A DNA stretch of 64,000 nt from an uncultured Draconibacterium sp. Its GTDB lineage: Bacteria; Bacteroidota; Bacteroidia; Bacteroidales; Prolixibacteraceae. Positions 44,157-62,391 of this stretch are shown here, piece by piece. The number at the start of each line of letters is the position of its first letter. Position 1 is the stretch's first letter. Made by a program: the position numbers and the translations under genes. The notes under the pieces are model-generated. The model had not been told where the DNA came from, did not search any database, and saw nothing but the letters and a program-made list of their open reading frames with translations. Where the stretch lies: assembly GCF_913060805.1 (NCBI RefSeq), contig NZ_CAJXTC010000022.1:1-64000 (forward strand), read 5' to 3'.

Positions 44157-45737
44157 ATGAAGAAGATAACATTAATAATATTGCTTTTTACAGGAGTATT
44201 TTTCACCTCTTGCGAATACGACCTCGACATAAACAACTCTCCCAACGCGCCTCAAGAGGCAGGTCCGGAACAGCGCCTTCCATACGTACTGGCCGAAACG
44301 GTTGACTTTTACGGTAGCCACGGAACACGTACTGCAAACCTTACTCAGCAGTTAGGTTACGCTTATCGTCCCGGCTACCGCTATTATATGTTTCAGAACT
44401 GGCAGTTTGCCAACAATGCTGACGCATGGGTATGGCAGTGTTGGTACGGTTATGCATGGGTAAACATTGAAGAAATGTTGAAAGATGCCGAAGATATTGA
44501 AGCATGGCATTATACCGGTGTTGGAAAAATCCTAAAGGCATTTGGAAACGGCTCGTTGGTTGATGCTTATGGTTATATTGCCTACCAGGATGGTATTGCC
44601 GGAAACATTCAGCCCGATTACGACGATGCTGAATACGTTTACAGCCAAATTCTTCCGTTAATCGACGAAGGTATTGCTGATCTTCAAAAAGCACAAGGCG
44701 AAAATGCCCCTGACCTATCGGTTGGCGATGTAATGTATAATGGCGATGTTGACAAGTGGATTAAGTTTGCCTACGGTGTAAAAGCCCGTTTTATGAGCCA
44801 CCTGTCGAAAAAAGCTGAAGGAACCGACCTGTTGGCTTACAATCCTGCAGGAATCCTTTCAAATATCTCACAGTCTTTCAGTTCTAATAACGACGATGCA
44901 GAATATATTGGTGAAGATGGCGACATTTCAGCAAGATGGTGTATTCAGCGTCAGAATATTGGCAGCTCGAATAAACCCGGTAAATTATGGAAAGACTACC
45001 TGATGAATACTGTTGATACTATTAACGGTGCCGGCGAAAGTTGGAACAGCGGCGTGGTTGACCCACGTACGGAAGTGCTGATCCCAAGAATTCTGGAAGG
45101 TGAGAATGCAGGCGAATTCTCGTTTGCTGTTGATTTGGGCGAAACAGATCATGCACCCACCACCGACGATGTAAACTATGTTGGAATGCGTTCTTCGGAA
45201 GAGAATCCATTGTTTTACACTGAAAAGAATTCACCTTATTTCTTACTTTCTTATTCTGAGTTGAAATTTATTGAAGCAGAGGTTTATTTCCGCCAGGGAA
45301 ATACTTCAAGCGCTTTGTCATCATATCAAGATGCTATTCAGGCGAACATGGATAAACTGGGAATTCCGGCTGAAGAAAGTGCTGCATTTATGGCAAGCGA
45401 AGCTGTTGCTCAAACCGCATCGGAATTGACATTGAGCCACATTATGATGCAAAAATACATTGCATGTACATACAGTCCTGAAGTTTGGACCGATATGCGT
45501 CGTTGCGATTACTGTATCGGTCCTGATGGAACATACGACTATGCAGCCGGTGTTTACAAAGGGTTTGATCGTCCGCCGTTTGTATACGAAACTGCATTTC
45601 CACAGGATGACGACTACATTCGTCGTTACCAAATGGCTTATTACGAGCGTTATTACAATGCTTCGAAAGTAGAAGCACTGGGCGTTTTTGAAAATGAATA
45701 TATGACTACACCAGTTTGGTGGGACATTGAAGAATAG
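44157..45737 (+). CDS. SusD/RagB-family substrate-binding lipoprotein
   Basis: A 526-residue surface lipoprotein that forms the lid on its SusC partner. The signal peptide ends in a lipobox, GVFFTSC, with Cys at about residue 19, followed by acidic EYDLDIN as in surface-exported Bacteroidota lipoproteins. The helical TPR-type SusD core shows LNPNAPQEA-like NSPNAPQEAGPEQRLPYVLA, GVGKILKAFGNGSLVDAYGY and the C-terminal YYERYYNASKVEAL. It is of the SusD-like_2 style, of usual length. A strong terminator follows, so susC-susD is a two-gene unit. Confidence 0.94.
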   Translation: MKKITLIILLFTGVFFTSCEYDLDINNSPNAPQEAGPEQRLPYVLAETVDFYGSHGTRTANLTQQLGYAYRPGYRYYMFQNWQFANNADAWVWQCWYGYAWVNIEEMLKDAEDIEAWHYTGVGKILKAFGNGSLVDAYGYIAYQDGIAGNIQPDYDDAEYVYSQILPLIDEGIADLQKAQGENAPDLSVGDVMYNGDVDKWIKFAYGVKARFMSHLSKKAEGTDLLAYNPAGILSNISQSFSSNNDDAEYIGEDGDISARWCIQRQNIGSSNKPGKLWKDYLMNTVDTINGAGESWNSGVVDPRTEVLIPRILEGENAGEFSFAVDLGETDHAPTTDDVNYVGMRSSEENPLFYTEKNSPYFLLSYSELKFIEAEVYFRQGNTSSALSSYQDAIQANMDKLGIPAEESAAFMASEAVAQTASELTLSHIMMQKYIACTYSPEVWTDMRRCDYCIGPDGTYDYAAGVYKGFDRPPFVYETAFPQDDDYIRRYQMAYYERYYNASKVEALGVFENEYMTTPVWWDIEE

Positions 45738-45763
45738 TTATTTTAAGTCTAGAGTTAAGCTGT

Positions 45764-45804
45764 AACGGCTTGCCCGATTCCATTTCGGGCAGGCCGTTTT
45801 TTTT
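45764..45804 (+). terminator. intrinsic terminator of susCD
   Basis: AACGGC (45764-45769) and TGCCCGA (45771-45777) pair with TCGGGCA (45785-45791) and GCCGTT (45793-45798), with a single T-G apposition between. A run of T to 45804 follows. It ends 17 bp before the 21-bp repeat array begins. Confidence 0.93.
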
Positions 45805-45820
45805 ATGCCTAAAAAAAATT

Positions 45821-46021
45821 CCGGAAAGGTAATAATGATAATTACCGAGGTAAGAAGATATATACCCAAGGGTAGAATGATTTTTACCAAGGTAAGAAGA
45901 GCTATACCCAAGGGTAACAAGGTTATTACCAAGGGTAGAAAGCTTTTACCCAAGGGTAGAATAATTATTACCAAGGTTCGAAGCCTCCTAACCAAGGTAA
46001 GGATGATAATTACCGAAGTAA
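45821..46021. repeat. array of palindromes at exact 21-bp spacing
   Basis: Nine palindromic units have centres at 45847.5, 45868.5, 45889.5, 45910.5, 45931.5, 45952.5, 45973.5, 45994.5 and 46015.5, a constant 21 bp. A half-degenerate unit sits at 45826.5. Two types alternate: TTACCAAGGTAA-like and TACCCAAGGGTA (45863-45874, 45905-45916, 45947-45958). The linkers between are variable and AT-rich. Since 21 is a multiple of 3, both strands stay open. The plus frame reads seven-residue units such as RRAIPKG, NKVITKG and RKLLPKG from an ATG at 45805. The minus frame gives Leu/Ile-rich heptads. The array lies between the susCD terminator and the convergent gene at 46038. It looks more like a DNA or RNA element than a gene. 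Confidence 0.9.
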
Positions 46022-46037
46022 TATTTAAAATTCCCTA

Positions 46038-46571
46038 CTACTGCTCAATCTCCCTGACCAGATCAAGAATCTTATCGCGCAAGGGTTTGTATTTGAAATA
46101 CCAGATCACAAGCCCAATTATCACTCCAAAGAGTATTGCCCCGAGAAAAAAGACCTGCGAATCGAGCACCGATTTGCCTTCCCTAATCCAGTCGAAAGTT
46201 AATCCCACATCCATTAATAGAAGGCCCGGAATAATCCACACTCCCCTTTTCTGAAATGGCTGGTAACGATAGGTGGCTTTTTTCAGCATTTCGAGTGTGG
46301 GCAACGAATAATCAACATACTGGTAGTCCTTATAATATTTACGAAAAGTGAGCGCAATGATCAGAAATCCCAATATAAGCGCAACACCGCCAATTAAATC
46401 GTTAATGCTCTGCGAATCGGAGTATTGTCGGGCAGTTTTTACAATAAACACAGGTATAAAAATCCAGTAAAATATCTGAATTGCTTTTACAATTGTGGCA
46501 TACTGTCTGTCTTCCTTTTTCAGTTTCCCGGTTAATTTACTCAGGTTGGTATCGAATTCGTGTGCGGTCAT
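46038..46571 (-). CDS. membrane protein, likely partner (anti-sigma-like) of the ECF sigma factor
   Basis: A 177-residue protein with a cytosolic N-terminal region of about 30 residues, MTAHEFDTNLSKLTGKLKKE. Four hydrophobic segments follow: ATIVKAIQIFYWIFIPVFIV, LIGGVALILGFLIIALTF, WIIPGLLLMDVGLTF and VFFLGAILFGVIIGLVIWYF. No named domain is recognised. Its start overlaps the stop of the ECF sigma gene by 4 bp (ATGA), so the two are translationally coupled. Membrane proteins in this position often act as anti-sigma factors; here that is inferred from context only. Confidence 0.75.
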   Translation of the reverse strand: MTAHEFDTNLSKLTGKLKKEDRQYATIVKAIQIFYWIFIPVFIVKTARQYSDSQSINDLIGGVALILGFLIIALTFRKYYKDYQYVDYSLPTLEMLKKATYRYQPFQKRGVWIIPGLLLMDVGLTFDWIREGKSVLDSQVFFLGAILFGVIIGLVIWYFKYKPLRDKILDLVREIEQ

Positions 46572-47080
46572 AATTGTTCTCCTTTCAGCTTTTCTTTTAA
46601 TTGCGATTTAATACGATGAATCTTCACCTTTACATTGGCCTCGGTAATACCAATAACCTCGGCAATCTCTTTCATCGACAGCCCTTCGAGCATCAACGAG
46701 ATCAATGCTTTATCGATTACCGACAGCTGATTTAGCTCAAGTTGCATTCGATCAAACAGCTTTTCCTCAGCCAGTTTTTGTTTCAGGTTTTCATCATCCA
46801 ATATCGAATTCAGGTTTGTTGTGTCGCTGTTTACCATCAGTTTCATGTGTCTGAAAGCCTTTCCGGTAAATGTTAATGACGTATTTACAGCCACCCGGTA
46901 CACCCAGGTACTCATGGCCGAATCGCCCCTGAAACTGTCGAGACTTTTCCAGATATTTACCAGCACTTCCTGGTACATATCTTTCTGGTCTTCGACGTTA
47001 GAATTGTAGTACCTGCAAATGTTGCGGATCCGCTCGCCATTGTCAGATACAATCGTTTTAAATTTCTCTTCTTTCGTCAC
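46568..47080 (-). CDS. ECF-type RNA polymerase sigma factor
   Basis: A 170-residue extracytoplasmic-function sigma factor. Region 2 contains NVEDQKDMYQEVLVNIWKSL and FRGDSAMSTWVYRVAVN. Region 4 contains LSVIDKALISLMLEGLSMKE and the helix-turn-helix IAEVIGITEANVKVKIHRIK. It would direct polymerase to a small regulon, held in check by the coupled membrane protein downstream. The start must be the GTG at 47080, since no ATG fits. A CACAGAG repeat lies about 225 bp upstream. Confidence 0.93.
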   Translation of the reverse strand: MTKEEKFKTIVSDNGERIRNICRYYNSNVEDQKDMYQEVLVNIWKSLDSFRGDSAMSTWVYRVAVNTSLTFTGKAFRHMKLMVNSDTTNLNSILDDENLKQKLAEEKLFDRMQLELNQLSVIDKALISLMLEGLSMKEIAEVIGITEANVKVKIHRIKSQLKEKLKGEQL

Positions 47081-48184: not shown

Positions 48185-51100
48185 CTACTTACACAGCGGA
48201 TCAACCCCAATTGTGCCAACCAACTCTTTTAGATATTGTTTCGATTCAACGTTTTTCAAACGTTCTTTTGCCAGTGCCAAACGGCCATTGATATCCATTT
48301 CGGCAACCAACGCAGCATTGTTTTCGTTGTCAATAAAATCCTCCAGATAACCAATCTGCTCCACAAGGAAAGCAATATCCTTTTCTTGCTTCAGTTTCAG
48401 GCGGGCTTTATACCAGTCGCTTTTTAGCACCTCTTCCCTGTCGAAAAGTTTACGCAGCTCCGGATCGCTGATATCCTTGCCTTCGTAATGGCCGTAAGCC
48501 ATAACATGCAGCAGCACTTTCAGCGGCGGAATGGCAGATTCAACACTTCCATCCTCGAAAAATGGTTGAGCAGCGCGCTGCATGGCTTCTGTAATATTAT
48601 TTATACCATCAACATAATCATCCATGTTTTGCAGTTCCGGCTTCAGCATGCGCTCGTTAAACACTGCCAGCGGCTCATCAAATAAGCGGTTCATACAACG
48701 GAACGCAAAGTTTTTGGTTATTCGGTAGCCCAAACGGCTGGCCAGTACTTTTTGTCCTTTGTATTCAAAGTCCTCCAGTTTTTCCAAACAGCCATTTTCA
48801 ATCAGCTTCTTCGGATCGCGATCTTCAGGAACCAAACGTGCCCAAATTTCAGGAATAAGAATACTGATATCGTGGTCGAAACGGTTTTCCGACCCAATGT
48901 ATCCGGCAGCCGAACTAAATCCCTGGTATTCTGTCAGAATGTACGACAGCAAGGCATTATTCAAATCGGTAGTTGGCACCAACATGTTAAAAGGCCCTTT
49001 GGTAAGCGCACCTTCCAGTCCGGCACCGGTTGTTGATGGAGACTTTCCGGTGATACTTGCCACAAAATCCATGAACAACTCAGGTAACTCCTGATAGTGA
49101 ATTGGATTGTAAACCGCTAATGGGCGAATTCCGGCTTCTTTGTCGGCAGGATTGTTTCTTCGTCCGGGCAGGACGGCATTTACAGGCCAAACCACTGGAT
49201 CTTTGTCTTTTATCTTGCGGAACAAACGCACACCAATTTCTCCGAGGTATGAGTCTTGTGTTTCGTCCTTAAATATATTGCACTGCAGGTAACGCGGGTT
49301 CTTTGTTGGCTCACCGTCAACAATACGTGGATGCGACGGTGTAACAAAGTAATTATCGCTATCGCCTTCAGCCACTTCCTTAATAAAGTTTTTTACCGGC
49401 TTGGTATATTTCTCAAAGCTAATGGCGTCTTCAATCAGTTCAACTGCATTCTCGCGCGTTAACGGCTCGTAATTCGTCAGGAATGTGTTATTGTCCACAA
49501 TTTCCTTTTCAGCTTCTTTATCGTAGCCTCTGATTACGGCTTCATCAGGGCGTTGGAACAGGTAACTTTCGCAGTTAGCAACCAGTTTTACACTCGGATT
49601 ATCGTACTCCCTATTCAGATCCTTCAGGCGATTTGACGGAACTGTAATCGTAGCCGAAATATCATCCTCTGTTTGGATTTTCATCGACGGAACAAAATCC
49701 GAACGTAGTTTATGCAAATACCAACGTCCTTCTTCGTTAAATCCAATACGCACATAACTTGCAGCAATCGGGTTGTGTTTGTAGCGCAACACATTTCCGG
49801 GGCGGCCATTTACAATTTCAACATTGAATAACTCGCGCCATTTCAATCCTTTTTCTTCGTTGCCACGGTAGTGACGTTTTACGAAAAAGGCCAGTGTGCG
49901 AACATTGTCTGGCAGGTCTTTCAGGAATTTATTATACTCGTCGCTGTATTGATCCGACGGTGTTAACAATTTTACAGCCGAACCTAAAGTACGTTCTTTA
50001 CTCAGGAATGAACGTGACGGATCAGCATCGGGACGCACTTCTTTCCATCGGTCAGAATAATCTTTATTAATGATTTCATCCACCATATTCTCCACCAACT
50101 CCAGGTTTTCGATGTAGAAAGACCCGAATTTAATGGCGTTTTGCATCGATTTTGAGATCTCTGATTTTCCACCACCGGAAACGGTACTTGGTTTATGGCA
50201 GAACATTCCTTCCGGAGCCGTGTCGATAATACGCCACATAGCTTGTGTTGGGTGTTTTACCAACTGAAATTTATGTCCGGTAGGATGAACGTATACTTTG
50301 TTTGGCGAAAGTTTCAGGCTGTAATCTTTGTTTTTGTATTTCCAGCTAACCGAACTTTTCTCCACATCAATATCAGCGTTTTCAGGAATGTAAACTACCT
50401 CCGGAAATTTCTTATCGATTGCGTAATTTCCTTCCTGCACCTCAATGCGGTTGCCCAGCAACTTTTTCACTTCATCGAAAGAGTACGGCTGGTCGAACTT
50501 TTTAGTAAAATTGGTTCCAAAAACGCTGTCGCTCATGTTTCCACGTGGGAAAGCAATGGCGCCACCGGCATGTTCTTCTTCAACCAAACCAAAAAGGTTA
50601 GCCGAATAGCTGATTTGAGTTTTTATCTCTTTTTTGGAATAACCGTAATAATTATCGGCAATAATGGTAACCACTACCCCGCGTTCATCGCGACAGGTAA
50701 GTTTAAAAGCAGAACCATCATTGTAAAGCTCATTTTCGTCTTTCCAACACATGCCGTCGCGTTTCTGTCGCTCCGATGCATCATCGTAATGTGGCAAGCC
50801 AACATCTTTCTTTTTGAGTTGAGTTAAGTGTGGTGCCAGAATAATACATCCGGTGTGGCCGGTCCAGTGCTCCACATCCAATGCGGCATCGTTAACAGCC
50901 AGGTTCGGATCGCCGGCATTACCAAAAATGGTTTCCACAAAGTCGAGGTTACTAACCAGACTTCCCGGTGCAAAAAAGCGTACTTCCATACTCTTTTGAC
51001 TAACAATACCGGGCACTTCAGGACAAACCACAGGGCGCAGCAACAGCGATACCATTACTTTTGCTTTTTCATCCTGTGCCGATGTAAATGGCAATGTCAT

Positions 51101-51658
51101 TAATTCATCGGTTGGTTTTAAGGCTGCGCTCAACAGATGCGCGAAAGTAATTTTCGGCACTTCTTTTTTGTCGGCAGGTACCGGAAGTCCGCCACGTACA
51201 ATATGGAAAGTTCCTTTTGTTGTTCGCTTATCTTTGGCCGGATTGTTCAGAATACCCTGCTTTAAGCGGTAAGAACTTAACAAATCGCTTTTAAACTCGT
51301 TGCCATTTGGTGGCAAACTCAGCTCACGCGCCATTTTTTTCTGGTTCAAAACCAACGTATTATTTGGCAAACGATAAGGCTTTTTGAATTCCAGCTCTTT
51401 TAAATAGTCATCGATAAAATGCTGAATTCGCGCATCGGCTGGAGACATGTGCTCGCTAAGCAAGCGCGATTTCTCCTGGAAGCTTTTTACCAGACCTTCG
51501 GTTAGTTCCTGAAATTTTGAATTGGCGTATTTTGTGCCCGAATCCGAATCGTCATTAAACGTAGGCTGACCTAAGGAAGCCAACTGCAGGTTAATGTATT
51601 GAATCATATCGCGGCGATCTCGTCTCGTCTGTTTTGAGGGAGTGGATTTTTTACTCAT
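48185..51658 (-). CDS. large protein, candidate pyrophosphate-dependent PEP carboxykinase
   Basis: A 1157-residue soluble protein without signal peptide or TM segment. It is not of a common Bacteroidota family, and the size matches the PPi-type PEP carboxykinases of about 1100-1150 residues known from Entamoeba and Propionibacterium. The glycine-rich stretch TVSGGGKSEISKSMQNA (about 491-507) would be the nucleotide/PPi loop. Other conserved-looking blocks are EEHAGGAIAFPRGNMSDSVF and TGKSPSTTGAGLEGALTKGP. Such an enzyme interconverts oxaloacetate + PPi and PEP + CO2 + phosphate. The assignment rests on memory of the family and is moderate; otherwise it is a conserved hypothetical. It is transcribed alone. 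Confidence 0.6.
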   Translation of the reverse strand: MSKKSTPSKQTRRDRRDMIQYINLQLASLGQPTFNDDSDSGTKYANSKFQELTEGLVKSFQEKSRLLSEHMSPADARIQHFIDDYLKELEFKKPYRLPNNTLVLNQKKMARELSLPPNGNEFKSDLLSSYRLKQGILNNPAKDKRTTKGTFHIVRGGLPVPADKKEVPKITFAHLLSAALKPTDELMTLPFTSAQDEKAKVMVSLLLRPVVCPEVPGIVSQKSMEVRFFAPGSLVSNLDFVETIFGNAGDPNLAVNDAALDVEHWTGHTGCIILAPHLTQLKKKDVGLPHYDDASERQKRDGMCWKDENELYNDGSAFKLTCRDERGVVVTIIADNYYGYSKKEIKTQISYSANLFGLVEEEHAGGAIAFPRGNMSDSVFGTNFTKKFDQPYSFDEVKKLLGNRIEVQEGNYAIDKKFPEVVYIPENADIDVEKSSVSWKYKNKDYSLKLSPNKVYVHPTGHKFQLVKHPTQAMWRIIDTAPEGMFCHKPSTVSGGGKSEISKSMQNAIKFGSFYIENLELVENMVDEIINKDYSDRWKEVRPDADPSRSFLSKERTLGSAVKLLTPSDQYSDEYNKFLKDLPDNVRTLAFFVKRHYRGNEEKGLKWRELFNVEIVNGRPGNVLRYKHNPIAASYVRIGFNEEGRWYLHKLRSDFVPSMKIQTEDDISATITVPSNRLKDLNREYDNPSVKLVANCESYLFQRPDEAVIRGYDKEAEKEIVDNNTFLTNYEPLTRENAVELIEDAISFEKYTKPVKNFIKEVAEGDSDNYFVTPSHPRIVDGEPTKNPRYLQCNIFKDETQDSYLGEIGVRLFRKIKDKDPVVWPVNAVLPGRRNNPADKEAGIRPLAVYNPIHYQELPELFMDFVASITGKSPSTTGAGLEGALTKGPFNMLVPTTDLNNALLSYILTEYQGFSSAAGYIGSENRFDHDISILIPEIWARLVPEDRDPKKLIENGCLEKLEDFEYKGQKVLASRLGYRITKNFAFRCMNRLFDEPLAVFNERMLKPELQNMDDYVDGINNITEAMQRAAQPFFEDGSVESAIPPLKVLLHVMAYGHYEGKDISDPELRKLFDREEVLKSDWYKARLKLKQEKDIAFLVEQIGYLEDFIDNENNAALVAEMDINGRLALAKERLKNVESKQYLKELVGTIGVDPLCK

Positions 51659-57669: not shown

Positions 57670-60600
57670 TTATTTATTTCGGTATATAAGTTTTCCAATA
57701 CGGATGTCTCCGTCAATATCCAGTTTGTAGAGGTACATTCCTGAAATTTCTGTTTCAGGTCTGAATTCTACGCGCTGCAATTCACCTGCTTCAACCGGTT
57801 TGTCGAGTAAACGAACAATCCGTTGTCCAAGCATATTATGAATTTCAAGAACAGCATGACCACTAACTGCAGGTACAAACTCGAAGTTCACTACCTCGTC
57901 GAATGGGTTCGGGAAGGCTTTGAATTCGCTCTCCAGCAAGTCAAGATCTTCTGTTTCAACTTTCTTCTTACCATTGCCTTTACCTTTATCCTGAGCAATC
58001 ATTACGCTTCCGGATAATGATGCTTGCTGATTGAAGTAGTCTATATCACAAACACATTGAGGAATACAGGTTACGGCATGAATAATGATGAAAACAGATT
58101 TCGGTGCTCCCGTTAATTCCAGATCAAAGCCATCTAATGGTTGAGCTCCTTCATAAACTATATTATATTGTCCCGGAGCAACCGTTGGTTTACCATTTTT
58201 CATGCTTGGATACATATCTTCACCCGCATAGATATGAGCTTCTGATAAGATCCAGCCATCAAATAAGTCATAGTATACAGTGATAACTCCTTCGCTCTCA
58301 AAGTTAACAACAGCAGTGCCAACATGCGTGCCTTTGCTCTCATCACATTGAGCTGCACCGGCATATATAGGCATATAGTAAGTTTTACCTTCTTGAATTA
58401 AGTTCGTCCAACCCCATCGGCTATATCCATCTTCAAGGAAACACCTTGCACCTAAGGTATCATTTGTTTCTGATAATTCTTCATCCAGTCGGGCAAATGC
58501 AGTTTCGCAACCACCATATTGATTGATCATCCATGTAATGGTCTGTTCGCATGTCTCTCTGTTGCCGCAATAGTCAACTGCCCAGTGTGTATGAACAACT
58601 TCGTAGTAACAACCGTCGTCTGATACTGTTGGAGTACCTTCGATAACACCTTTATCCGCCACACCGCAATTATCACTCCAAGTAACAGTATCCATAGGCA
58701 TCCAGTCTACATATTCCGGATCACATCCTATATCAACAGGTTCTGGACAATTATCTGCTGTTGGTTTTTCAGTATCAGCGGCTACTCCAAACGTTGCACT
58801 AGCGGTCGTTTCATCACACAGATCCTCGATAGTCCATGTTACTGTGATCGTATCGCCTTCACAAAGTACCGGGTAAACTTCATCCCAGTCATTCTCTGTT
58901 ACCTGAGGATCACAACCCTGACCTACAAGCTCTGTTTGTATTGCGGTCAACGATGCTGACATCCACGCATCAAATGCTGCACTCAGCTGTTCCTGACTAT
59001 CATAGTCACATGAGCTGTTGTCATCATCATCGCTCGGATCAGTCACTACAAGATCATCTACGCCGGCTACTCCAAACGTTGCACTAGCGGTCGTTTCATC
59101 ACACAGATCCTCGATAGTCCATGTTACTGTGATCGTATCGCCTTCACAAAGTACCGGGTAAACTTCATCCCAGTCATTCTCTGTTACCTGAGGATCACAA
59201 CCCTGACCTACAAGCTCTGTTTGTATTGCGGTCAACGATGCTGACATCCACGCATCAAATGCTGCACTCAGCTGTTCCTGACTATCATAGTCACATGAGC
59301 TGTTGTCATCATCATCGCTCGGATCAGTCACTACAAGATCAGCTGGTGCTGGCAACCTAAATGTTGCTGAACAAGTATTCGGATTAGCACATTCATCATG
59401 TAATGTCCACGTTACAGTTACAGTATCACCACAAGCATCAGGATAAGTTACACTATCCCAATCAGTAGTAAGTATAGAGTCACTTCCAATTACTGTTACT
59501 CTTGCCATCCATTCATCAAATGCTGTTTCAATTTCAGCAGAGGTCAAACAAGTTGTAACAGTAGTGTCATTTGGACAAGTCAAAATCACTGGATCGCGGT
59601 CACCAACAGTTCCTGTACAATTCACTGATTGCGGCACAGTTAAGGACGTATCAGTAATTACAAGTTTATAATCACCTGAATCTAATCCGGTAATCATAGT
59701 GTCGTTACTAATTACTGTCACATCATCTGGTAAGGCATACCATTCAAACAAATAGTTAGTATAATTTGTAGGTACGGTTGCTATTTTAGCCCAACCATCT
59801 GAAGCCCCGTCGCATGTTGCATCCTCTGTATCAACTGTACATGGTGGTGTTGTATAGGTCGGTGCTGAAATTCTTACCATACAAGTTACCTCACATCCAT
59901 TTACATCCACTAAATCAACATAATATGCTATACCTCCTACACTACCTTCTATTCCCCATATGGAGTCTGTACCTTGCCCGCCACCAATAGTACCATCAGT
60001 GGTATACCAGTAATAGGACACTATATCCGGAGTATTTACTTTAGCAGAACCATCATATAGAAACTGATTGGATGCTGCATGAGCCGTTGTATTACAAATT
60101 GGGTTTGGATATACAGTTACTAGTACATCTGCAATATCCTCACAATTGTTGTGATTTATTGTTTTTATCCAGAATGTGGAATCGCCTACAGAAACAGTTA
60201 CTGAAGGGCTTATTGAATTTGTTCCTGCTAATGCATCTGCCTCACTGGCAAAGTAACTTACAGTACCTCCACCATCGTCAGTTATAGCGGTAGACAAATC
60301 AAAAGATTTTGCTCCTGTTTCTCCATTTTCACAACTGTCAAGATTCGTTACTTCCAACACAGGGTTCGGATATACAGTCAACTGTACTTCTGCAATATCC
60401 TCACAATAATTAGCATTTATCGTCTTAATCCAGAATGTGGAATCTCCTACGGACACAATTACTGAAGGGCTTATTGAATTTGTTCCAGTTATTGCATCTG
60501 CCTCACTGGCAAAGTAACTTAGAGTACCTCCACCATCGTCAGTCACAGCGGTAAACAGATCAAAAGACTTTGCTCCTGTTTCGCCATTTCCACAGCTGTC

Positions 60601-62391
60601 AAGATTCATAACTTCCAACACAGGATTCGGATATACAGTAACTAGTACATCTGCAATACTGTCGCAGCCGTTAGTACTAACTGTTTTAACCCAAAAAGTT
60701 GAATCGCCAACAGAAACAGTAACCAGTGGAGAAATAGTTGGAGAACCATTATTCGCGTTCGCATAACTCGAATAATAAGTTGGACTACTTCCACCATAAG
60801 ATACTACAGCTGTTGAAAGATCGAAAAGTTTTTCACCTGTTTCGCCATTTTCACAACTATCCAAATTCATAACTTCCAAATCAGGATTCGGATAAAATCC
60901 AATGATAAAACTGTCTACAACGTAACATTCAACATCCTGCGGATTAGAAGCCCTGACATATATTGTTTTAGGCATTTCATTAGCAGGAATATTGTGCGAT
61001 AAAGAATCGTCTATTACTCCTAAGAATTTATCAGCATCTTCAAAAGTATTATGATATGTTATAATATTGCCAAATGTAGTATCAACATTAGCTGTTAAAT
61101 CAATATCATAAGACACTTCATCCTGGCATTCTTCCGAATTATGAACAGCCACATCTGTAGTTAATTCATAACCGAAAAGAAATGGCCCTGCAAAGTCTTT
61201 TAACTCAGCAGTAAACGAAGCAGAAGCACGTGTTTTAACCATCAAACTACCTAAAGTTTTATTACATGCATCATCGCCTCCAAAACTACCGAGACCAATT
61301 TCCGTTAAATTAATTGCAAATTCGGCATATTGAAGTGCCTGAATTTCCTCATACCAAGCTTTTGCTTCCAAACTTCCCCATGGTGCGCCCAACACAGCAT
61401 CATTTACATTTACAATAGCCCAAGCTACTGCAAACGATCCTGTGGCTTCAATTCCGGCATAACCAAAACCGTCAGCATCTTCACCACTATCGAATTCACC
61501 GGTTAAAGTAAAGTCAACAGAATCTGGCATTGCTATGGAAAGCGCAGCAAAGGTGGCGTCAGACATCCATAATCTAACTGAAGCTGCAGGATCTGTACCT
61601 CCATTTTCAAAATCTATACTCACAATCAAATCTCCTGCCTGCGTAACGTCCTTAGGTCCAAACTCCCATGCCGTATGACCTGCATCATCATCGAGATTTG
61701 TTAATGCAGTACCACTAAAATCAAGCTGGTTTCTAAAAAATTCAAAATCGGCATGTGAATTACCATCTGATGAAATGGTAGTAAAAGCACCTATTCCATA
61801 AATATCACCATTGGTATCTTCCCTCATATGACCCATTACATCAACTAGATCATTTTTCTGAGGCGTACCTCCTGTTCCTAAACTCCAGGTAGCGGGATTA
61901 CCTCCGTTTTTATCCTGACCACCAGTAAATACACTTTCGTCATTAAAACCACCCTGAGAGTTCCAGTCACGAAAATAAACACCATCAATCCACAGATAAC
62001 CACCATTTAGAGTATTTCTTGGCACACTCATTCTTAATTCAAAAGAAGTATTGTAGTCGGCAAGAACATCTTGGAGTAATGCAGCGGCATTTGTTTGGTC
62101 AATAACCCCTGATCCAGACCCTGAATACAGAGTTGTATCAAACCAATCGTCTGTATTATATACATAACTCCCTTCATATACTGTAAGAGTATCAGCATAA
62201 ATATCAGAATCAATACCAAAATTTGCCTTGACAGTGGCTCCCTCTGTTACAATTTGTCCATAACTAACAGGAGCCGTAAAAATGGCTAAAAGAAGTAATG
62301 TTACACCACTGCACCAACATCGAAATAGCCATTTTTTCATTTCAGACAACGAGAAATCTGTTCTCGAAGGTTCTACGTAATTTTGTTTCAT
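57670..62391 (-). CDS. large secreted T9SS protein with Ig/HYR-like and tandem repeats
   Basis: A 1573-residue cell-surface or secreted protein. Residues about 18-46 are the signal peptide (MKKWLFRCWCSGVTLLLLAI). About 47-470 is a unique domain of no recognised family. About 500-763 holds three repeats of about 85 residues opening YPNP[DV]LEVMNLDSC. About 930-1205 holds three Cys-containing modules ending in TVTWT-E-like strands, two of them identical (95 residues, boundary DLVVTDPSDDDDNSSCDYDS). The last 85 residues are the type IX secretion sorting domain, FKAFPNPFDEVVNFEFVPAV to GKLIYRNK. T9SS export and surface attachment follow from that domain; the ligand is unknown. A second in-frame ATG lies at 62340. 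Confidence 0.85.
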   Translation of the reverse strand: MKQNYVEPSRTDFSLSEMKKWLFRCWCSGVTLLLLAIFTAPVSYGQIVTEGATVKANFGIDSDIYADTLTVYEGSYVYNTDDWFDTTLYSGSGSGVIDQTNAAALLQDVLADYNTSFELRMSVPRNTLNGGYLWIDGVYFRDWNSQGGFNDESVFTGGQDKNGGNPATWSLGTGGTPQKNDLVDVMGHMREDTNGDIYGIGAFTTISSDGNSHADFEFFRNQLDFSGTALTNLDDDAGHTAWEFGPKDVTQAGDLIVSIDFENGGTDPAASVRLWMSDATFAALSIAMPDSVDFTLTGEFDSGEDADGFGYAGIEATGSFAVAWAIVNVNDAVLGAPWGSLEAKAWYEEIQALQYAEFAINLTEIGLGSFGGDDACNKTLGSLMVKTRASASFTAELKDFAGPFLFGYELTTDVAVHNSEECQDEVSYDIDLTANVDTTFGNIITYHNTFEDADKFLGVIDDSLSHNIPANEMPKTIYVRASNPQDVECYVVDSFIIGFYPNPDLEVMNLDSCENGETGEKLFDLSTAVVSYGGSSPTYYSSYANANNGSPTISPLVTVSVGDSTFWVKTVSTNGCDSIADVLVTVYPNPVLEVMNLDSCGNGETGAKSFDLFTAVTDDGGGTLSYFASEADAITGTNSISPSVIVSVGDSTFWIKTINANYCEDIAEVQLTVYPNPVLEVTNLDSCENGETGAKSFDLSTAITDDGGGTVSYFASEADALAGTNSISPSVTVSVGDSTFWIKTINHNNCEDIADVLVTVYPNPICNTTAHAASNQFLYDGSAKVNTPDIVSYYWYTTDGTIGGGQGTDSIWGIEGSVGGIAYYVDLVDVNGCEVTCMVRISAPTYTTPPCTVDTEDATCDGASDGWAKIATVPTNYTNYLFEWYALPDDVTVISNDTMITGLDSGDYKLVITDTSLTVPQSVNCTGTVGDRDPVILTCPNDTTVTTCLTSAEIETAFDEWMARVTVIGSDSILTTDWDSVTYPDACGDTVTVTWTLHDECANPNTCSATFRLPAPADLVVTDPSDDDDNSSCDYDSQEQLSAAFDAWMSASLTAIQTELVGQGCDPQVTENDWDEVYPVLCEGDTITVTWTIEDLCDETTASATFGVAGVDDLVVTDPSDDDDNSSCDYDSQEQLSAAFDAWMSASLTAIQTELVGQGCDPQVTENDWDEVYPVLCEGDTITVTWTIEDLCDETTASATFGVAADTEKPTADNCPEPVDIGCDPEYVDWMPMDTVTWSDNCGVADKGVIEGTPTVSDDGCYYEVVHTHWAVDYCGNRETCEQTITWMINQYGGCETAFARLDEELSETNDTLGARCFLEDGYSRWGWTNLIQEGKTYYMPIYAGAAQCDESKGTHVGTAVVNFESEGVITVYYDLFDGWILSEAHIYAGEDMYPSMKNGKPTVAPGQYNIVYEGAQPLDGFDLELTGAPKSVFIIIHAVTCIPQCVCDIDYFNQQASLSGSVMIAQDKGKGNGKKKVETEDLDLLESEFKAFPNPFDEVVNFEFVPAVSGHAVLEIHNMLGQRIVRLLDKPVEAGELQRVEFRPETEISGMYLYKLDIDGDIRIGKLIYRNK
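58779..59341 (-). repeat. perfect 285-bp tandem duplication inside the T9SS protein gene
   Basis: Bases 58779-59056 and 59064-59341 are identical over 278 bp with a period of 285 bp, i.e. 95 codons. Synonymous sites show no divergence at all, so this is a very recent duplication, an assembly artefact, or actively homogenised. It encodes two identical modules of the T9SS protein. Confidence 0.9.

Follow-up and report, generated by a model that had tools for sequence, protein, structure and literature searches.

The window, a stretch of 64,000 nucleotides of Draconibacterium DNA, holds a phased array of nine 12-bp near-palindromes with 9-bp linkers (45842..46021), set between two genes that run towards each other. 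On the left, a SusD-like gene (44157..45737, plus strand; PF12771) is directed at the array and is followed by a terminator-like inverted repeat, AACGGCTTGCCCGA/TCGGGCAGGCCGTT and then a T-run (45764..45798), which bounds the slot towards susD and is conserved in several relatives. On the right, a gene for a 177-aa membrane protein (46038..46571, minus strand) ends 16 bp from the array, and the gene of an ECF-type sigma factor (46568..47080, minus strand; PF04542, PF08281) lies upstream of it. The first-pass annotation had placed the array just past a terminator on the susD side and opposite an ECF-linked membrane gene, which these coordinates confirm. The membrane protein has a weak Pfam match (MscS_TM) under the cut-off, and its orthologues serve as the slot marker in other species. 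The six window proteins compared with Pfam were a TonB receptor, SusD, the membrane protein, the ECF sigma factor, a DUF4386 protein and one frame without a match. Further along, a 1157-aa open frame (48185-51658, minus strand) has no Pfam match and has relatives at the same slot in four other species. A 285-bp perfect duplication and 261-bp tandem repeats in about three copies lie at 58779-59341 and 60101-60894, and perhaps represent repeated surface-protein domains.

The nine cores are TTACCGAGGTAA (core 1, 45842..45853), TACCCAAGGGTA (core 2, 45863..45874), TTACCAAGGTAA (core 3, 45884..45895), TACCCAAGGGTA (core 4, 45905..45916), TTACCAAGGGTA (core 5, 45926..45937), TACCCAAGGGTA (core 6, 45947..45958), TTACCAAGGTTC (core 7, 45968..45979), TAACCAAGGTAA (core 8, 45989..46000) and TTACCGAAGTAA (core 9, 46010..46021). 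They are separated by eight exact 21-bp steps; a degenerate tenth core, CCGGAAAGGTAA (45821..45832), of which the right half alone survives, lies in phase 21 bp ahead of core 1 and brings the number of steps to the nine originally counted. The proposed alternation of two core types is seen over cores 1-4 and breaks down afterwards, as core 5 combines both half-site types and the final three cores are worn, core 7 in its right half; exact matches amount to three of the nine cores for TACCCAAGGGTA and one of the nine for TTACCAAGGTAA. Tandem Repeats Finder (TRF) reported periods of 21, 42 and 84 bp at the array, and alignment with orthologous arrays indicates that the window copy is 42 bp short. 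Both strands are indeed open across the array (45805-46254, plus; 45738-45995, minus), yet neither frame is gene-like.

Distribution and pitch of the array family

The window array belongs to an undescribed family, whose intergenic members mostly have 9-13 units; among the literature records listed, titles and the beginnings of abstracts contained no description of such arrays. Its two-core pattern matched 13 of 61 genomes, its own included; these 13 are all among the 37 genomes that represent the genus, and 24 genomes from other families gave no match. With R1, a model that uses sequence only and was derived from 36 array segments, at least 23 of the 37 matched at E 0.001 or better and, under stricter filters, 8 of 197 other genomes of the order. 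Among the R1 matches listed, the window's own genome has four places (contigs C16, C22, C1 and C34): besides the array described here, there is a copy at C16:70546-70786, a weak one at C34 and, next to a glyoxalase-fold gene, a remnant at C1:180801. A GCCCC-type array is also present on contig C27. A search of a plasmid collection returned no plasmid copies.

In 47 examined loci (46 fetched and the window), a 21-bp chain was found in 41. Nine or more units were present in 26, of which 24 have 10-13 units and none is longer; elsewhere arrays reach 14 units within the genus (L373) and 16 outside it (L223). Relatives generally keep the phase, the exceptions being a worn copy (L105), the C1:180801 remnant and a one-base slip inside L098. 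When the 26 arrays of at least nine units were placed by hand, convergent genes flanked 14, tandem genes flanked 8 and 4 had no clear assignment. If the called frames are real genes, two of these last (L075 and L099) lie between divergent genes, and so does L087, which has 8 units. At several loci the array starts 10-50 bp past a stop codon. Single motif sites showed no clear enrichment genome-wide (with arrays counted, 94 compared with 78 for the reversed pattern), and a decoy for a regulator with dispersed operators was rejected on this count.

The pitch was examined with a sequence-blind scan in which rows of palindromic 12-mers were scored at each period from 13 to 84 over 1.26 Mb, namely the window and 1.2 Mb of a congener (G007, 60 stretches). 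The highest ten-unit score was that of the window array (39 of 50 pairs, period 21), in keeping with the exact spacing first noted, and the second-highest that of a G007 array at 211270 (37, also period 21); the next were 34 and 33, both at period 45, and another 33 at period 21, so that no other period exceeded 34. Controls with the partner slid by 1-3 bases scored 33-34 away from arrays and 33-38 on arrays at 21 bp, the latter because tandem units pair out of register too. Scores exceed the control level at 21 bp only, within a limited sensitivity: of three G007 arrays that the model had found in the scanned stretches, among the matches listed, one was clear, one was at control level (near 1680420) and one was absent (near 1003638), so that weak arrays at other pitches could be missed. 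Under a criterion of five palindromes in seven units, period 21 appeared twice and period 76 once. In 0.58 Mb around array loci, some of them overlapping, matches fell at 21 (25), 42 (20) and 41 bp (1), against 21 (10), 42 (6), 41 (2) and 29 bp (1) in the slid control. Ordinary tandem repeats in the 1.2 Mb of G007 had mixed periods.

Spread beyond the genus is a lead, since the loose pattern used there itself imposed 21 bp and CC..GG. It matched at least 118 stretches, many of them plain 21-bp tandem repeats. Among the 115 stretches in which it was refound, 25 had both free pairs complementary in at least half of the units, with about 7 expected, and 12 of these 25 came from Bacteroidota. Two Niastella arrays (L140, L164) look similar by eye, contain a one-base slip and fail the half-of-units cut. 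Like these, other Bacteroidota carry 21-bp arrays of other core types, wholly or partly palindromic, namely a Tannerellaceae MAG (L118, L159, L170, L209), Marinilabiliaceae JC017 (L223) and a Bacteroidetes MAG (L125, L148, L175); L147 is the same array as L104 and adds no case.

Recurrent slots, divergence and exchange of the palindrome

Three slots recur: slot I is that of the window, marked by the membrane gene; slot II follows an ArsC-family gene, with the array 10-13 bp past it in five of six copies; and slot III adjoins the gene of a 118-aa protein. A fourth follows a glyoxalase-fold gene. Nine orthologues of the membrane gene are close (E below 1e-90), and seven of them have an array downstream, in G000, G029, G002, G012 (followed by an inserted transposase element), G030 (worn), G024 and G009; none was seen after the close orthologues in G007 and G034, or within 900 bp of nine more distant homologues (0/9). 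Upstream of the ArsC-family gene, a 41-bp tandem repeat of the GAACAGTTTTTC type was observed at positions 115-394 in G017 (L325) and 320-558 in G004 (L326), its pitch being near, yet not, 42 bp.

Orthologous arrays at loci I and II were compared over 21 sequence pairs, which are non-independent, after the worn L105 had been dropped. Core positions 1, 4, 5, 8, 9 and 12 differed in 83 of 1077 comparisons (7.7%), positions 2, 3, 10 and 11 in 134 of 714, the core centre in 88 of 363, the linkers in 288 of 1449 (19.9%) and the aligned flanks, coding ends included, in 1972 of 5956 (33%). Key core positions thus diverge 2.6 times less than linkers, and the equal divergence expected of an old microsatellite was not found. 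The view that cores are kept stands; that linkers are free needs correcting, since they diverge less than the flanks. Taken phase by phase, the contrast is less clean: the figure is 15% for C4 and C5, and linker positions 19 and 21, at 6.2% and 8.1%, are as slow as key core positions. Unit exchange and homogenization could mimic core conservation. Over 4520 aligned columns within arrays, gaps were of 84 bp (8), 42 bp (3), 41 bp (2, in one sequence pair), 2 bp (5) and 1 bp (2); outside them, 69 gaps of 1-16 bp occurred in 6655 columns. Small gaps are therefore rarer in arrays (7/4520 against 69/6655), and large length changes are mostly 42- or 84-bp blocks. Together with the slow key positions, this agrees with the earlier suggestion of constraint beyond plain slippage.

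What the first-pass annotation had not foreseen is that the palindrome itself is replaceable: pitch and symmetry persist while the core sequence is exchanged, and the type can change at the same slot. At slot I, G024 and G009 carry another near-palindrome, CTTCAACTGAAG-like, in about 9-11 units at the same 21-bp pitch, with CTTCA..TGAAG-like cores, linkers such as aaatgagtg and the same terminator-like repeat behind; slot II of G009 has a TTCCC-type array. Cores in other families of the order include TCCCC..GGGGA, TCTCC..GGAGA and TTACT..AGTAA, and a single genome (G034) holds several core types together (GCCCC, GTACC, TTTCC). Around the 118-aa gene, G003 and G036 show allele exchange: they are 96.9% identical over 1006 bp starting 411/472 bp past the 118-aa gene, just beyond the array, and 83.5% identical over the gene and its upstream region, and the array between has no match of at least 60 bp. 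The class-B arrays of G036 and G029, by comparison, are 90.9% identical, their 118-aa genes 85.2% and the downstream flanks 78.7%.

Within the genus, 20 of 37 genomes encode the 118-aa protein, with 37 matches in all. Among 148 further genomes sampled from the order it is found in two (G134, G118), both of which belong to the eight non-genus genomes matched by the array model; in G118, gene and array match lie on different contigs. Of 40 gene copies, the 33 with a locus were examined with a strict test, in which palindrome score and self-similarity both had to peak at 21 bp among periods 14-35. Downstream, 18 of 33 copies had an array by this test; upstream, none of 32 did. Self-similarity alone added five downstream and one upstream, and palindromes alone none downstream and one upstream. 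The core types following the gene were GCCCC (7, two on self-similarity only), TATCC (2), CAACC (2) and GTACC (1), and TTACC, TCCCC and class B cores were seen in others. The proteins of all seven GCCCC copies group in a single clade (support 96/91), which also includes one array-less member, and the two CAACC proteins are sisters. TATCC and TTACC are each found in distant clades, so protein and array type are linked in part only. Four genomes (G001, G013, G012, G002) have 3-5 matches of the family each, some without a visible array. The window array has no adjacent 118-aa gene, and the sole match in its own genome is at C27. In G134, 8-bp satellite runs (AATGAGAG, CATTCTAT) lie between the 118-aa gene and the 21-bp array at L406 and L408.

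Searches returned no Pfam match for this protein, a weak NCBIfam match (phasin, E 0.039) and weak PHROG matches. Its named relatives, among the best 120 of 212, belong to Draconibacterium, Maribellus, Sunxiuqinia, Mangrovibacterium and Mariniphaga. The predicted structure is an all-helical rod with a 58-residue helix (pLDDT 80.5, pTM 0.44), and a fold search of this model against the PDB gave nothing at E 0.001. By its position, the protein is a candidate for binding the array.

Symmetry, folding and the rival explanations

Symmetry was analyzed in 328 cores from 31 arrays, which had been found with a model of the same motif. T1, C4, C5, G8, G9 and A12 are 79-93% fixed, and the two halves at positions 2 and 3 agree no more than in within-array shuffles (z -0.3); T5 and A8 occur together in one core three times, against 7.3 expected. 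This lack of covariation between halves speaks against core hairpins, and selection on such hairpins was rejected as unsupported. Palindromy is a property of the array type, without unit-by-unit repair. In the consensus cores of 45 arrays, several of them chosen by palindromy, 3 of 5 pairs were kept in 8 arrays, 4 in 25 and 5 in 12. Order is also present outside the cores, as linkers show self-palindromy (z 5.4), inverted similarity at lag 2 (z 5.5) and direct similarity at lag 4 (z 6.1), and half-sites are related across two units (z 4.0 and 4.8).

The first of two serious, though less probable, rivals is a transcribed RNA element, in which the array would be the 3' untranslated end of the upstream gene's messenger and a string of hairpins acting in stability, as a protein sponge or as a small RNA. 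The array starts shortly past stop codons agree with it, as does folding: against dinucleotide shuffles, 52 of the 62 strands folded from 31 arrays reached z of -2 or below, and the window array gave -4.8 and -3.2. The gene strand gives the better fold in five of six copies at locus II but is no better than the other in four of four full-length copies at locus I, and strand preference was discarded as inconsistent. The greater variability of C sides over G sides (13 of 46 vs 4 of 44 columns) is a further sign in favour of RNA. G-U cells outnumber A-C cells on the gene strand at loci I and II (40 vs 23) and slightly at III (24 vs 19), and 23 oriented class-B hairpins gave 35 G-U and 4 A-C cells on one strand; this last count, however, comes from rows selected for pairing, and in L098 the strand so favoured is antisense to the neighbouring gene. 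The cores lack internal compensation, RNAalifold found no consensus structure in 36 segments, Rfam gave nothing at the gathering score in ten loci (the window match was at chance level), and the exact pitch is left unexplained. The RNA option of the first-pass annotation is accordingly weakened, while the folding scores and locus II still speak for it. A long class-B hairpin (18-bp stem, 15-nt loop) was set aside, given the missing RNAalifold consensus and the pairing-selected rows behind its strand count. Its pair 40-78 was A-U in 17, U-A in 11, U-G in 3, C-G in 2 and unpaired in 3 of 36 rows, and on three of five measures the structure outscored every one of 500 shuffles. Arrays with different linkers, however, seem to be the main source of the U-A rows.

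The second serious, though again less probable, rival is a palindromic satellite, whose 21-bp units would have been amplified by replication or recombination, homogenized by unequal exchange and then left to functionless decay. Some arrays look young, with near-identical units (L333, L336, L408; in L408 the core TCCCCAAGGGGA is identical in nine units and the linkers differ). Super-periods of 42, 63, 84 and 105 bp and the 42/84-bp gaps point to unit exchange, and the setting of palindromy per array, with single mutations uncompensated, fits such a history. It leaves unexplained the dominance of 21 bp, the narrow unit number (at most 13 in the 47 loci, with 14 and 16 as the extremes elsewhere), the one gene family that precedes arrays and never follows them in the strict test, and the G036/G029 arrays, which are more alike (91%) than their gene (85%) and downstream flank (79%).

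We consider it improbable that the arrays are recombination substrates, at which gene-plus-array alleles are exchanged with half-sites as recombinase sites. The G003/G036 comparison, where near-identity begins just beyond arrays that share no long match, can be read this way; homologous recombination in the flanks accounts for the exchange equally well, and no recombinase gene was recognized beside the arrays that were read, where most flanking genes are without annotation. One transposase-bearing insertion also abuts two arrays of G012 (L081 and L082): the same element, with an rve-type transposase of 306 aa that we take to be IS3-like, sits at the outer array edge in two different slots, as if arrays were insertion targets in that genome. 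The short-repeat coding option of the first-pass annotation, a heptapeptide repeat of seven codons per 21 bp, was rejected as very improbable: in 26 arrays the second frame is open in 8 on the plus and 5 on the minus strand and the third in 1 and 2, but most frames contain stops, the motif itself forbids them at several codons of the open frame, conserved positions 1, 4, 5, 8, 9 and 12 have no codon period, substitution by phase modulo 3 between orthologues (0.134/0.181/0.179) shows no codon-wise constraint, and open frames share neither start nor extension.

A proposed docking array and its comparison with known systems

The reading we favour, at a probability of a little under 0.4, is that dimers of a DNA-binding protein dock on such arrays at the 3' ends of genes; the protein-binding option of the first-pass annotation is thus the best supported. 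It is favoured because independent half-sites, fixed key positions, the two-turn pitch, narrow lengths and placement at 3' ends fit it best. The half-sites resemble binding half-sites and are unlike stems, as the shuffle and T5/A8 results indicate, and pitch, palindromy, a narrow unit number and a position mostly at gene 3' ends characterize the family. Each 12-bp palindrome would take one dimer, the two-turn spacing would serve protein contacts along one face of the helix, and dimers would fill the array side by side on that face. Once filled, the array would separate converging transcription units, either as a boundary or as a roadblock. Arrays beside the 118-aa gene would form a swappable gene-plus-array module, of which window-type arrays would be orphans.

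Several observations count against the docking array. One sequence-reading protein cannot serve all of the core types that occur together in G034. Loci I and II, read on the adjacent-gene strand, vary in 13 of 46 columns on the CC side and in 4 of 44 on the GG side, an inequality that a symmetric dimer does not predict. Single sites show no clear enrichment, the linkers have structure, C4 and C5 are fast and linker positions 19 and 21 slow; the possibly divergent L075, L099 and L087, the slip in L098, the limited sensitivity of the scan and the scores that slid controls reach at 21 bp on the arrays weigh in the same direction.

The window array belongs with 21-bp phased palindrome arrays, understood as rows of 12-mers whose palindrome is free to differ, and none of the known families tested fits it. 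Plasmid centromere and iteron arrays (sopC, parC, tubC, R6K-type) consist of about ten phased protein-binding repeats that form one nucleoprotein patch, often with a small gene alongside. The arrays resemble them in repeat number, phasing and the frequent small gene. They differ from partition centromeres in that several chromosomal arrays of different sequence occur in one genome, and no partition NTPase or adaptor gene was found among the window proteins scanned. Type III toxin-antitoxin systems likewise have a small gene adjoining a tandem repeat array with allele-specific repeats. Here, however, the array is downstream and the 118-aa protein is predicted to be all-helical and has no family match of weight, its Pfam, NCBIfam, PHROG and PDB fold searches giving no sign of a ToxN-like endoribonuclease. 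CRISPR arrays combine conserved palindromic repeats of 21-48 bp with unique spacers of about 30 bp; the present arrays share conserved palindromic repeats and variable intervals, but the repeat is 12 bp, the interval is 9 bp and non-unique, and no cas gene is among the six window proteins compared with Pfam. Sites of the datA type, which titrate a protein with a cluster of binding sites without a promoter, are similar in being such a cluster and differ in that single motif copies are not clearly enriched elsewhere here. REP/BIME elements are short intergenic palindromes found mostly between convergent or tandem genes and clustered in some genomes, and REPs carry an unpaired GTAG or CGTC tag, reach high copy number and form dimers at varied distances (PMC3733652). 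Window-type arrays are likewise short intergenic palindromes mostly between convergent or tandem genes, but they lack the tag, are few per genome, keep an exact 21-bp pitch and have interchangeable sequence. By eye, GTAG occurs only where a TACCC-type palindrome precedes G, and GCCCC, TATCC, CAACC and CTTCA arrays have no tag; the window's own genome, with four R1 matches among those listed and the one GCCCC array, falls short of REP-like copy number.

Repeated palindromes are usually explained by their sequence, be it a tag, a protein motif or a stem. Here, unrelated palindromes share one spacing, one symmetry and narrow lengths, partly at the same slots and often beside one uncharacterized protein family. 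A tentative extension, which we regard as possible and somewhat unlikely, is that the element is coded by geometry instead of sequence: about eleven dyads at two helical turns would be inherited, the palindrome would be an exchangeable allele swapped with a small coiled-coil protein gene, and the window would have a solo copy of such a module. In view of the exchange of gene plus array, a two-part module stays a live option. Should the arrays bind protein, they would be natural variants of one architecture written in different letters, with which the role of helical phasing in bacterial chromosome organization could be tested. If it exists, a geometry-coded element of this kind would be a chromosomal locus of a new class in Bacteroidota, a two-part system in which the array is the half that confers specificity.
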